IMG/VR virus record: IMGVR_UViG_3300044680_000100
Span: 1-22,052 of that record
Reading direction: 5' to 3' (one strand)
Origin: a virus
DNA: 22,052 bases
The translations under genes were made by a program, and so were the position numbers. How positions within the stretch are numbered: position 1 is the first letter of the stretch; each line of letters opens with the position of its first letter. A model generated the notes under the pieces. The model saw only the letters and a program-made list of their open reading frames with translations. It had not been told where the DNA came from and ran no database searches. Below, in pieces: positions 12,859-22,052 of this stretch.

Positions 12859-13206
12859 ATGAAAATCAACATCGACGAATTAACCATCAAGGAAGTCCGT
12901 GAATTGCAGGCGTTGCTAGGCAATGCTGCCACTCCCCAGTCACCTCACCCGTTCACCATCGGCGCGAATTACTTCATCCGCACCGTGACGCATCACCACA
13001 CCGGCAGACTGGTCGCGGTCGGAGACAAGGAGCTTGTCCTCGAAAACGCCGCGTGGATTGCCGACGACGGCAGGCTTACCGATGCGCTGAAATCCGGCAC
13101 GTTCAACGAAGTCGAAATGTTCCCGATTGACGCCAAGGTTATCGTTGGTCGCGGGAGCATTATCGACGCCCTGATCGTCTCGACGATTCCAACCTCTCAA
13201 AAATAA
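12859..13206 (+). CDS. Conserved-looking phage protein of unknown function (115 aa)
   Basis: The protein begins MKINIDELTIKEVRELQALL. Its core has the pattern YFIRTVTHHHTGRLVAVGDK, ELVLENAAWIADDGRL and VIVGRGSIIDALIV, ending IPTSQK. It looks well folded and beta-rich, and I recall similar phage proteins with TGRLV, AAWIAD and VGRG motifs but no function for them. A short N-terminal helix precedes an Ala/Pro linker. The start lacks a Shine-Dalgarno; the 45-nt leader is A/C-rich. Its TAA overlaps the ATG of the hexamer-repeat gene (TAATG), suggesting the two are translated together. Confidence 0.72.
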   Translation: MKINIDELTIKEVRELQALLGNAATPQSPHPFTIGANYFIRTVTHHHTGRLVAVGDKELVLENAAWIADDGRLTDALKSGTFNEVEMFPIDAKVIVGRGSIIDALIVSTIPTSQK

Positions 13207-13424
13207 TGAACGCTGCAATAGCATTTGAAGGATGGTCGCGGTCGTGGTCGCGGTCGTGGTCGGGGTCGTGGTCGTGGTCGGGGTCGCGGTCGTGGTCGCG
13301 GTCGGGGTCGGGGTCGTGGTCGTGGTCGTGGTCGGGGTCGCGGTCGTGGTCGCGGTCGTGGTCGTGGTCGGGGTCGCGGTCGTGGTCGCGGTCGTGGTCG
13401 TGGTCGTGGTCGGGGTCGCGGTAG
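13206..13424 (+). CDS. Low-complexity (W/R/G)-S repeat protein (72 aa)
   Basis: Starting at the ATG that overlaps the upstream TAA, the frame gives MNAAIAFEG, then alternating X-Ser dipeptides with X = Trp, Arg or Gly up to TAG at 13422-13424. Every second codon is TCG. The variable sixth base of each GGTCGN unit is the first base of the alternate codon, so it sets W, R or G. The stop-start coupling and the non-repetitive nine-residue lead favour this frame over the other two open plus frames (Gly-Arg from TTG 13225, Val-rich from ATG 13232). I recall similar low-complexity phage proteins after homologues of the upstream gene, unverified. It may be untranslated; function unknown. Confidence 0.4.
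   Translation: MNAAIAFEGWSRSWSRSWSGSWSWSGSRSWSRSGSGSWSWSWSGSRSWSRSWSWSGSRSWSRSWSWSWSGSR
13234..13424 (+). repeat. GGTCGN hexanucleotide tandem repeat, 31 units
   Basis: Thirty-one perfect GGTCG cores in a row at 6-bp spacing run to 13419, with a broken copy at the end. The sixth base in order is CTCTGTT GCTCGGTTT GCTCTT GCTCTTT GC; it is never A. The internal GCTC-start blocks show a higher-order repeat of 36-54 bp, pointing to stepwise duplication. The tract is strongly G-rich on the plus strand and has no stop codon in most frames of both strands. Confidence 0.95.
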
Positions 13425-13455
13425 TATTAACACTTTCCGGCACCAACGCCTGAAA

Positions 13456-13509
13456 CCCCTGCCAGCCGTCCAGTCAACACCCTGATTTGCGGGCTGGTGG
13501 CTGGCGGGG
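13456..13509 (+). other. Long imperfect hairpin after the hexamer tract
   Basis: CCCC (13456-13459) and GCCAGCC (13461-13467) pair with GGCTGGC (13499-13505) and GGGG (13506-13509), with one bulged T. Inside, CCAG (13470-13473) pairs with CTGG (13494-13497) and CCC (13480-13482) with GGG (13491-13493). No T-run follows on the plus strand. It could be a factor-dependent terminator, an RNA-processing site or an mRNA end stabiliser for the upstream genes. Confidence 0.5.
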
Positions 13510-19245: not shown

Positions 19246-19410
19246 GTGAGTACCATGGTCAATTCGCATCCTGGCTTCAAGGCCGTTCAGAAGAAGATAG
19301 CCGGCAAATACGGCATGGCCGCAGCGGGCCGAATTTTAGCGGCAAGTACGCGCAAGGCTGGCAGCGCTGCCCGCAAGGCCAATCCGAGACTAAACCGGGT
19401 CAAGGGCTGA
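19246..19410 (+). CDS. Small basic phage protein (54 aa)
   Basis: GTG 19246, with AAAGGA upstream, gives MSTMVNSHPGFKAVQKKIAG, KYGMAAAGRILAASTRKAGS and AARKANPRLNRVKG. ATG 19255 is an alternative start. The pattern SHPGFKAVQxKIAxK, then GRILAASTRKA, then AARKxNPRLxRVK recalls a common small phage family (function unknown). It is highly basic and helical, so nucleic-acid binding is possible. It has its own promoter (19191-19218) and is flanked by minus-strand genes. Its last 11 nt overlap the end of the C5 methyltransferase gene. Confidence 0.75.
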   Translation: MSTMVNSHPGFKAVQKKIAGKYGMAAAGRILAASTRKAGSAARKANPRLNRVKG

Positions 19411-21079
19411 ACCGCTTCACCCGGAGAGCAATCCAGGCCAGCACGGAAACCGTGACGGCGTTCCCTAGTTGCTTATACCTCGGCCCATCCGCCTGCTCGT
19501 AAACCTTGCCCGTCTTTTCGGAGAGTGCGTATCTCGTAAAATCAACTGGAAACGCCTGGAGTTTTTCGCACTCACGTACAGTAAGTCGGCGCACCTTCAT
19601 TTTGGTCAACAACCCCGGTTGATTGTCTCCCATGTTGCTCCTAAGCGTTGATACCTGGTCTTGCAATCCGCGCTGGCCAGCATTTCTCGCGATTGATCCG
19701 GGTTCAAATGCCACAGCCGGCGCGTGCGCCCCACTCGCCAGCGGATGACACGGATCGCCAGGCTGGGGATTCGAGTAATTGCCTTGACTTGTGACCTGCG
19801 TGGTGTCGAAGGGGATTGGGATTAAATGGCCTTCTTTTGTGCTGCTGTCGCTTCCCTTGCTGTCGCTTCCCTTGCTGTCGCGCTCTTGCAACGCCCAGGC
19901 GAGTTCTGGAATATAGTCCAGCGAATCCACCTGGTTGGTTCGTGAGCCGCCTTTGGGACAATTGAGCGTGTCGGCGACGAGCGGCACGCCGCGTCCCGTG
20001 CCGTCTTCGCTGGCATCGAAGCCTTCCGCTTTGAGGCTGTGGGCAATTTGAATTGGTATCACCGCTCCGTCGCACTCGGCGTCGGTTCCGAATCCGCCAC
20101 CTGCTGTAGTGCGAGCCGCAAGGCTGGGGGCAGTATCACGCTGATTGTTCAGTCGTCTCCTTATCGCACCGCGTTTGGTATTTTCCTGATTAGTAACAGG
20201 CTCAAGATGCGCTGGATTCACACAGTGTCTTACGCAGCATTTTCTTTCCTCATCTGGCCTACCGCGTGTGTTGATTGGGATTGCAGCATTTACATCCCCG
20301 CTTGTTCGCCATCTTTGGTAATGCTGATTGCACCATCCTCTTTTTCTGGCTGGGAGTCCGCATCCAACGATTGAGCAACATCCATCAATGCATTCATCAA
20401 CGCTATCGGGAGTTCCTTGCCTCTTTTCTTCGCGCGCCTCAAAATTCCCCGACAGGCTTTTGCGCTCAAATAATATTTGGCCGGCACTTCCGTCTCCAGA
20501 ATCGAAGACAGCGAACACACGCCTCCTCCGTTGCGCGACTCCGAAAAATTGACTGTCGAGTACTGTCCAAGCCGCACAACGGTGTCGTCCACTAACCATA
20601 CCAGAATCGGGCCAGCTAAAGTAGTCTCCTGACTTTCCCTGCTTCCACCGGCCAATGGTTCTTGGCGGAAGGAGTGGGGCATTTCCTCCCACCATCGCGG
20701 AGACAAAGCATCCGAAGGCGTTGTCTGCGGTGGAGAGGATTCCTGGAACATTTTCAAAAACGACGATTCGTGGTCTGAGTGCATTGGTTATTTTTACTGC
20801 GGCTAAGGTTAAATTGCCGCGCGCATCCTGGAGTGAACCGCGCAGCCCGGCGACTGAGAAGCCTTGACATGGTGTAGATAGAAGAAGCACCGATGGCTTT
20901 GGCAGGTTCTCCAAATCCAGTTCCAGCATGTCCTTGTAGATCGTGAGGTTCGGCCAGTGGTGGCGCAATACCTCGCGGCACTGGCGGTCAATCTCGCACG
21001 CCCACAGCGGTTCAAACCCGGCGTTGTGGAACGCCAGGTCGCATCCGCCGATGCCGGTGCAGATACTTGCAAACGTCAC
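19400..21079 (-). CDS. C5-cytosine DNA methyltransferase with a decayed HNH insertion
   Basis: Numbered from GTG 21079 (559 aa), which sits in a GTGA overlap with the clamp stop and has AAGAGG upstream; ATG 21106 is an alternative. Motif I is FASICTGIGG (3-12), motif IV catalytic PCQG (70-73), motif VI ENV (109-111) and motif VIII QRRRRVF (183-189). After the variable region come RRLTVRECEKLQAFP (497-511) and motif X LGNAVTVSV (538-546). All core catalytic motifs are intact. Between VIII and IX, residues about 228-304 are a foreign block: a zinc-knuckle part (C235, C240, C250, H253) and the tail HCVNPAHLEPVT of an HNH endonuclease, without the catalytic DH part. A Ser-Lys-Gly-Ser-Asp repeat lies near 401-412. 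It methylates cytosine at C5; the target site is unknown. Confidence 0.92.
   Translation of the reverse strand: MTFASICTGIGGCDLAFHNAGFEPLWACEIDRQCREVLRHHWPNLTIYKDMLELDLENLPKPSVLLLSTPCQGFSVAGLRGSLQDARGNLTLAAVKITNALRPRIVVFENVPGILSTADNAFGCFVSAMVGGNAPLLPPRTIGRWKQGKSGDYFSWPDSGMVSGRHRCAAWTVLDSQFFGVAQRRRRVFAVFDSGDGSAGQILFERKSLSGNFEAREEKRQGTPDSVDECIDGCCSIVGCGLPARKRGWCNQHYQRWRTSGDVNAAIPINTRGRPDEERKCCVRHCVNPAHLEPVTNQENTKRGAIRRRLNNQRDTAPSLAARTTAGGGFGTDAECDGAVIPIQIAHSLKAEGFDASEDGTGRGVPLVADTLNCPKGGSRTNQVDSLDYIPELAWALQERDSKGSDSKGSDSSTKEGHLIPIPFDTTQVTSQGNYSNPQPGDPCHPLASGAHAPAVAFEPGSIARNAGQRGLQDQVSTLRSNMGDNQPGLLTKMKVRRLTVRECEKLQAFPVDFTRYALSEKTGKVYEQADGPRYKQLGNAVTVSVLAWIALRVKRFSP
19843..19880 (-). repeat. 15-bp direct repeat inside the methyltransferase gene
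   Basis: TGCTGTCGCTTCCCT occurs twice in tandem (19843-19857, 19858-19872), followed by the first 8 bases of a third copy. In the minus-strand gene it codes for repeated SKGSD between the variable region and motif IX. The 15-bp unit keeps the frame, so copy number can change without a frameshift. Confidence 0.85.
20168..20398 (-). other. Decayed HNH endonuclease domain within the methyltransferase gene
   Basis: The block translates to CSIVGCGLPARKRGWCNQHY, QRWRTSGD, then after a short stretch CCVRHCVNPAHLEPVT, NQENTKRG. Phage HNH enzymes of this type have a zinc knuckle followed by QRWRxxGD, then a catalytic region ending in a DHLC-like motif, then VRxCVNPAHLEPVT and ENxxRG. Here front and tail remain but the middle with the catalytic histidine is missing, without breaking the reading frame. 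The limits are approximate. Confidence 0.7.
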
Positions 21080-22052
21080 TTCAGAATCCTCTTGCTCAAA
21101 ACGCATTTATAGTCCCCCTCAGCCATCTCCACCACATTCAACGCGGCCGTCACATCCACCGACGGCCCCTGCAACGACTGCAATCCTTCCAGCAAGTTTG
21201 CAGCCCCGAACCGCACCTTGTGCTCGTTGTATCTGCCGTCCAGCCGTGTGTTGAAATCGTTGATCTGCGAGGCGTAAACCACTTCCAGCCCCGCATCCGA
21301 GAAATGCAGGTCCACGCCGTCATTCCACGGCTCGGACAGCATTTTGATCTGCTCGACCGCGGCGATCAGCGGCGCGATCTCCAGCGCCCCGATTTGGGTG
21401 CGGTCGTTTGACCAGACTTTGGTGACATCGAAATAATTCCCCTCACTGAGCCGCACATAGGCGGTCATACCATCGGTCGAGGCCATCGCAAATTTGTCGG
21501 ACACCCCAAGATTGCAATCCTCGTCGGCCAGCACTTCGCAGAACAGCTTGGCCTGCGCCGCAGGGAGCATGAACGTCGAGGGTGCGCAGATGCTGGGCCG
21601 GTCAACGTAGCCCACACGGCGGCCGTTGGTGGCCGCGCAGACAATCCCCCTGGCGGTCGTCCATACGCCGATGCACCTGACTTGAATGCGCCCATCCTGG
21701 CTCCCCGGATCAGCCGCCCATTCGACGCGCGAAATGCAATCGCCGAGTTCCTGGGTGTTCAACCCGACGAGCGGGATGTTCGACGGCCACTCCGGGAAGT
21801 CCTTTGGATCGGCTGTTCCCAGCAGACCCACACCGCTGGCCTTCACCTTGAGCCGGGAGTTGGCAGTCGCCTCGATCTCCACGTCGCCGGTCGCATTCTG
21901 GATCAACGCCTGCAACGAGGTGGCTTTGACACACACGGCCTCCAAATCCCCTTCGCACTCGCAGGTGGCCGTCGCGTACGCGTCAAGATTAGTCGCGTAC
22001 AAATGCAGCACTCCGAGCGTGGCGTGGAGTTTGATGTTGGACAGGACGGGCA
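21076..22052 (-). CDS. DnaN-like DNA sliding clamp, N-terminus beyond window
   Basis: The frame is open to the right edge, so the true start lies outside. Visible residues begin PVLSNIKLHATLGVLHLYAT, which fits the beta-clamp start PxLSNxL, then LYATNLDAYATATCECEG as in the TATDLE region. VCVKATSLQALIQNATGDVE and LKVKASG correspond to domain I of DnaN. The middle has EWPSNIPLVGLNTQELGDCI and the end LDGRYNEHKVRF. The protein would form a ring that tethers the replicative polymerase to DNA. Phage-encoded clamps of this family are known. Its stop overlaps the start of the methyltransferase gene. A GTG at 22011 is probably not the start, since clamp-like sequence continues upstream. Confidence 0.8.
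   Translation of the reverse strand, partial: PVLSNIKLHATLGVLHLYATNLDAYATATCECEGDLEAVCVKATSLQALIQNATGDVEIEATANSRLKVKASGVGLLGTADPKDFPEWPSNIPLVGLNTQELGDCISRVEWAADPGSQDGRIQVRCIGVWTTARGIVCAATNGRRVGYVDRPSICAPSTFMLPAAQAKLFCEVLADEDCNLGVSDKFAMASTDGMTAYVRLSEGNYFDVTKVWSNDRTQIGALEIAPLIAAVEQIKMLSEPWNDGVDLHFSDAGLEVVYASQINDFNTRLDGRYNEHKVRFGAANLLEGLQSLQGPSVDVTAALNVVEMAEGDYKCVLSKRILK

Follow-up and report, generated by a model that had tools for sequence, protein, structure and literature searches.

A start-coupled (Trp/Arg/Gly)-Ser repeat gene beside a predicted Sm-fold protein gene in uncultured phages

RESULTS

A hexamer tract begins where the gene for a 115-residue protein ends

We analyzed a stretch of 22,052 nucleotides, hereafter the window, from a virus record in IMG/VR (IMGVR_UViG_3300044680_000100, positions 1 to 22,052). 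Its genes match families of terminase, polymerase-type exonuclease, Cas4/DUF2800-type exonuclease, AAA/SMC-like protein, and methyltransferases. Our interest was drawn to two overlapping genes, the second of which consists almost entirely of a tandem repeat:

12859 to 13206, plus strand: gene for a 115-residue protein (P0001) of predicted Sm/LSm fold, subfamily A, the partner upstream of the array (AF2 model; 407 tblastn-confirmed relatives in IMG/VR)
13204 to 13208, plus strand: TAATG, in which the stop of the Sm-like gene overlaps the start of the repeat gene (start coupling; sequence and homologues)
13206 to 13232, plus strand: leader of the repeat protein, MNAAIAFEG (leader column counts over 80 homologues)
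13233 to 13421, plus strand: (Trp/Arg/Gly)-Ser array, unit NGGTCG, in the same ORF as the leader (TRF, ORF, and the frame decided by homologues)
13422 to 13424, plus strand: TAG stop directly ending the array (sequence)

TRF reported a 6-nt array of 31.7 copies at 13233-13422, and a four-unit pattern confirmed it, with 28 forward matches versus 0 for a reversed control. The plus-strand ORF at 13206-13424 begins inside the TAATG, translates as MNAAIAFEGW(S[WRG])n, and ends on the TAG at the end of the tract; it contains 31 TCG codons alternating with 16 TGG, 9 CGG, and 7 GGG codons. The hexamer tract described in the original prediction is therefore real. The same prediction held that the variable base is never A, which is true of the window and fails elsewhere, where the Arg codon AGG is frequent (284 codons in the anchored arrays described below). 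It also proposed a second-order repeat of blocks starting GCTC. These correspond to Gly-Arg-Trp-Arg blocks, which recur three times in the window array. The tract is open in three plus-strand and two minus-strand frames. However, openness alone proves no coding frame, because a hexamer without stops is open in several frames.

Elsewhere in the window, a DNA methyltransferase ORF (19400-21106, minus strand) has matched halves (approximately residues 7-253 and 486-565) flanking an HNH-endonuclease match near residues 288-330, which may represent an HNH element or an insertion resembling an intein. The same ORF contains a perfect 15-bp tandem repeat, TGCTGTCGCTTCCCT, at 19843-19881 (2.6 copies).

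Homologues decide the coding frame

We collected relatives of the 115-residue protein regardless of any repeat, from IMG/VR (407 tblastn-confirmed relatives, 79 loci kept) and from GTDB genomes (13 loci), and refer to these as anchored loci. The size of the IMG/VR set confirms the suspected conservation of the upstream gene. A start-coupled ORF of alternating X-Ser dipeptides was present in 80 of the 84 anchored loci that extend 150 nt or more downstream, so that the low-complexity frame seen in the window does follow this gene in its homologues. The start usually overlaps the upstream gene or comes close to doing so, and 48 of the 80 coupled loci have an ATGA-type stop/start overlap. Three of the remaining four loci (L026, L031, and L165) have arrays elsewhere in the locus; for the fourth, L161, no array was found in the stretch examined. 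The ORFs open directly with a leader of 9-13 residues, for which 80 homologues give a consensus of approximately M-N-[AQ]-A-[IV]-L-R-[TA]-G-[FYW]-[DE].

Phages differ in which Ser codon dominates: over 69 arrays it is TCG in 42, AGC in 13, TCA in 11, AGT in 2, and TCT in 1. One locus, L022, encodes a similar protein rich in Ser, Gly, Arg, Lys, and Thr with mixed codons and without a DNA repeat. Because the Ser codon varies, what is conserved is the X-Ser protein and neither the hexamer nor a Gly-Arg frame. The latter (13225-13485 in the window) had been our first favorite, since the variable base is silent there. It was excluded by the homologues, as in that frame the AGC arrays would read Gly-Ala, the TCA arrays Gly-His/Gln, and the TCT array Gly-Leu. 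Minus-strand Arg-Pro and Thr-X frames were rejected on the same codon evidence. We conclude from these comparisons that the tract is a real coding gene for an X-Ser protein, and that the frame coupled by TAATG, correctly singled out in the original prediction, is the one used. The prediction had left open whether the locus yields a protein or acts as a DNA or RNA element. Five hexamers and, in a few phages, non-repetitive DNA encode the same X-Ser protein, which decides the question in favor of the protein.

The same diversity bears on assembly. An assembly artifact, which had been raised as a possible objection, does not explain the origin of the array, because arrays occur in many independent contigs and with five Ser codons; the exact array length is less certain for any one short-read contig. 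The repeat array would account for the many contigs that end beside the Sm-like gene: 17 of 101 anchored loci stop within 150 nt of that gene. Two loci, L034 and L085, proved to be the two ends of one 105,858-base contig, each stopping inside an X-Ser array, which suggests that the genome is circular or terminally redundant and that the assembler opened it at the array.

The pairing was also recovered in the reverse direction. Among the repeat matches listed, which were chosen by the DNA repeat alone, 76 loci had enough upstream sequence, and 61 of these have an Sm-like gene no more than 600 nt upstream. The two proteins are encoded separately, with no single ORF fusing them among approximately 35,000 stop-to-stop ORFs. 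Tandem extra X-Ser genes occur in 36 of 200 locus-strands, with up to 11 copies. The extreme case, L024 (3284-6179), has one Sm-like gene followed by eleven X-Ser ORFs, several of which have leaders resembling MNQAIAINVW, in an apparent tandem gene amplification. Two further loci, L150 and L100, contain Ser-rich hexamer tracts within longer ORFs, without an Sm-like gene upstream; these are perhaps unrelated low-complexity segments.

The upstream protein is predicted to adopt an Sm fold

An AF2 model of the window protein, a member of subfamily A, was built from 34 homologues and had a pLDDT of 89.1 and a pTM of 0.71. Nearly all of its listed PDB structural matches were Sm/LSm proteins, the best being the archaeal Sm protein 1i8f (VIA-align Z 9.8, rmsd 1.6 Å over 64 residues); the Foldseek E-values were only about 1e-3, as is usual for such a small domain, and a common fold is no proof of function. 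A second subfamily, B, was met upstream of about twenty arrays. Its AF2 model (pLDDT 91.0) aligned to 1i8f with a Z of 10.6 and 1.8 Å over 65 residues (VIA-align), with Sm/LSm chains again making up nearly all of the PDB matches listed. Profile comparison shows the two subfamilies to be homologous (hhalign 96.6%, E 5.8e-10). We thus predict with good confidence that both adopt the Sm/LSm fold of an N-terminal helix followed by a five-stranded bent sheet.

In sequence, the two subfamilies stand apart from known Sm/LSm proteins. The 115-residue protein had no match above cut-off in Pfam, PHROGs, or NCBIfam and none among PDB sequences, and subfamily B had nothing above curated cut-off in Pfam, PHROGs, or NCBIfam. 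LSm models in particular gave no Pfam match up to an E-value of 1 for either subfamily, and none in NCBIfam. Because no LSm profile matches, these are Sm-fold proteins by prediction that lie outside the curated LSm sequence families. By eye, the canonical Sm1 uridine signature, Asp-x-x-Met-Asn, is not evident in A or B, while many subfamily A members have an Sm2-like G-R-G-S-I in their last strands. With the Sm1 signature not evident and the Pfam LSm models unmatched, RNA binding by the Sm-like protein is not assured. Subfamily A further differs from archaeal SmAP and eukaryotic Sm/LSm proteins, which it resembles in its predicted helix and five strands, by a helix inserted after strand 3. The best viral structural neighbors of the 115-residue protein are DUF6948-type phage proteins in BFVD (e.g., A0A6J5MA76, E 7.3e-6, 23% identity), although a Pfam search gave no DUF6948 link from the Sm-like sequences. 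A literature search for the repeat, DUF6948, and phage Sm-like proteins returned no description, most subscription papers lying outside its range.

The leader of the repeat protein tracks the Sm subfamily. Behind subfamily B the leaders are basic, with a mean charge of +3.3 and often KQKY or RYRR, whereas behind subfamily A they are nearly neutral (+0.2). This pattern is consistent with docking of each leader on the Sm protein that it accompanies, although co-inheritance alone may produce it too.

Array diversity is concentrated at the amino-acid-changing base

Over 73 arrays, X is 29% Trp, 35% Arg, and 36% Gly, with a scatter in composition between arrays of 1.3-2.0 times multinomial. Arg-Ser dipeptides make up about one third of the units, mixed with Trp-Ser and Gly-Ser. 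Beyond residue 12, Glu accounts for 0.2% of residues, and Asp and His round to 0. RGG-box clusters are absent, as X and Ser alternate and Ser separates Gly from Arg in regular arrays. The X codons favor GG whichever Ser codon is used: anchored arrays contain 701 GGG versus 49 GGA and 420 CGG versus 12 CGA codons. Degenerate members depart from this pattern, with third-base G in only 35% (L022) and 42% (L194) of Arg and Gly codons, and keep the Ser/Gly/Arg/Trp protein. Array proteins had no match above curated cut-off in Pfam or NCBIfam. NCBIfam gave weak matches to the repeat regions of SdrC/ClfA (best 3.5e-5, well short of cut-off), which we rejected as compositional.

Within arrays, Simpson diversity was 0.67 at the first, amino-acid-changing base of the X codon, in comparison to 0.09 at the Ser third base and 0.08 at the silent third bases of Gly and CGN codons; the X first base was more diverse than the Ser third base in 68 of 69 arrays. 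Because all of these sites share the same unit turnover, the gap implies either selection that keeps Trp, Arg, and Gly together or base-specific mutation. The two are not separable from these sequence data, and we favor selection. Identical adjacent units are rarer than in shuffled arrays (z -3.7), the opposite of single-unit slippage.

The gain and loss of whole units foreseen for the window is supported by near-identical phages. L027 and L028 do not differ in the 3.2 kb preceding or the 2.6 kb following an array of 44 versus 24 units, and all of their differences lie in the array. The same is true of the 17 differences between L019 and L020. The window and L122 show three differences in approximately 10.4 kb outside the array and many inside, with 6 of 9 in the array in one alignment. 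In contrast, L168/L169 and L188/L189 have identical arrays and one difference elsewhere. Short-read collapse or misassembly may account for part of the between-genome differences in arrays.

The gene pair lies among replication and recombination genes

Across loci, the neighbors of the pair include helicases, exonucleases, an ssDNA-annealing protein, primase, clamp loader, and methyltransferases. Replication, recombination, and methylation prevail among neighbors with a named family, in a tally of 130 neighbors with few matches each. No tail or head genes are among the family matches adjoining the window array, and few are among the neighbors elsewhere. Helicase and exonuclease neighbors do not point to RNA in particular.

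We searched 50,697 phage records by tblastn with P0001 and two hand-made family consensus queries. Matches were confined to two metagenome-derived Manatee Spring genomes (MW202573 and MW202825), one of which has a 'hypothetical protein' annotation (MNAAIIRAGLDASWSWSW...), and a short N-terminal match in a Vibrio phage. One query against plasmids gave no match. The GTDB matches are MAG contigs. In one of them, L158, the module sits in a prophage-like region of a 649-kb Isosphaeraceae contig, where by eye we recognized terminase, portal, NinB, and RusA among the nearby ORFs and relaxase/coupling-like ORFs at a greater distance. The terminase, portal, and NinB ORFs adjoining L158 make an Isosphaeraceae host plausible. 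When 392 Planctomycetota genomes were searched, this already known locus (G001) was the only one recovered.

DISCUSSION

Sequence comparison establishes the frame of the repeat gene, its start coupling and pairing with the Sm-like gene, its composition, and its pattern of diversity. The Sm fold of the partner is predicted from models. From these, we tentatively propose, at somewhat less than an even chance, that the pair is an early-region module in which an Sm-fold protein and a co-translated, disordered, cationic-aromatic partner docked through its leader bind or condense nucleic acid. Gene 1 would yield a small Sm/LSm-fold protein, expected to form rings. Gene 2, started by translational coupling, would yield a probably disordered protein with a short leader followed by (Trp/Arg/Gly)-Ser repeats. 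The leader would dock on the Sm-fold partner, leaving an array in which Arg and Trp act as stickers, a role generally ascribed to them, and Gly and Ser as spacers. Such an array may bind phage or host nucleic acid and cluster or condense it, probably at sites of phage genome replication or transcription. The parts that we infer are expression, disorder, docking, nucleic-acid binding, condensation, and the place and time of action.

Several other roles were weighed against this proposal. Trp/Arg antimicrobial peptides are a known class, which the Trp/Arg-rich, almost acid-free array resembles, and short coupled genes with tandem extra copies are common for effectors; the repeat protein could then be a membrane-active or toxic peptide (a lysis aid, or directed against host or competitor), with the Sm-like protein as its regulator or chaperone. 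We consider this unlikely: with almost half of its residues Ser and a third of X Gly, the array is only weakly amphipathic, the leaders examined contain no hydrophobic segment, and the pair does not lie among lysis genes. An adhesive product was one option in the original prediction. A surface or virion role, as an adhesive or stalk-like Ser-dipeptide protein, recalls the Sdr/Clf adhesins of staphylococci, whose Ser-Asp repeats come from variable-length arrays. Alternating Ser does produce the weak SdrC/ClfA matches. However, X in Sdr/Clf proteins is Asp, which is 0.0% of the phage array after residue 12, and those proteins are anchored at the surface and have no Sm partner, whereas the 40-100-residue phage ORFs have no anchor domain, run straight into a 9-13-residue leader, and lie beside a predicted Sm-fold protein and replication and recombination genes with few tail or head genes nearby. 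The adhesive role thus found no support, and we hold it very unlikely.

The target of selection could also be the nucleic acid: GG every six bases could form two-tier G-quadruplexes or an mRNA or DNA binding site, with the protein a by-product, and GG is indeed kept beyond what Arg and Gly need. Yet the degenerate members lose GG and keep the protein; position, frame behind the Sm-like gene, and leader are conserved; and GG retention is expected if recombination homogenizes arrays while only the Trp/Arg/Gly differences persist. This explanation is improbable. We give hardly more credence to a base-specific diversifying mechanism that keeps the first X base variable and produces a hypervariable decoy or anti-defense protein. 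Both the excess of first-base diversity over silent sites and the concentration of differences in the arrays of near-identical phages would follow from it, but two such pairs have identical arrays, misassembly could create part of the differences, and balancing selection on Trp, Arg, and Gly needs no special mutator. A neutral microsatellite that is open in most frames by chance is practically excluded. A stop-free hexamer with a length that varies between near-identical phages invites that reading, which is contradicted by the conservation of leader, coupling, and partner at 80 of the 84 loci, by the same protein being encoded with five Ser codons and also by non-repetitive DNA, and by diversity at the amino-acid-changing base with neighbor identity below that of shuffles.

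The proposed binding or condensing module has partial parallels in known systems. SR proteins and the RG tails of Sm proteins are Arg-rich low-complexity segments of eukaryotic RNA-binding proteins. The phage array differs from RG/RGG and SR segments in its strict X-Ser alternation, in having Trp at approximately 29% of X, and in lacking RGG boxes, and we claim no homology. As described in PMC10881997, an RG-rich segment of coilin undergoes RNA-induced phase separation; it resembles the array in being Arg-rich and of low complexity with Gly/Ser spacers. Hfq is an Sm protein with a disordered C-terminal domain (PMC5606850), and so offers a likeness of an Sm-fold protein that works with a disordered low-complexity stretch. 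However, Hfq has this stretch within its own chain, and in Escherichia coli the stretch is acidic, while that of the phages is a separate, start-coupled, basic and aromatic protein.

The Sm fold and the low-complexity principle are thus known already; both protein families and their pairing were absent from all resources searched. A broader reading, which we regard as doubtful, is that a two-gene condensate system resembling a ribonucleoprotein is common to uncultured tailed phages with diverse hosts. It would consist of an Sm-fold protein and a separate sticker-spacer partner whose Trp/Arg/Gly mixture is kept diverse by selection or targeted mutation, and would be the phage equivalent of the RG/SR tails found on eukaryotic Sm-type particles. 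The two families and their easily found signature can serve in annotating viral dark matter. If the broader reading is true, many uncultured phages would carry a two-part system of an Sm-fold protein and a minimal sticker-spacer protein of essentially four amino acids, and this large natural variant series of one disordered protein would show which mixtures work, making rules of condensate composition testable.
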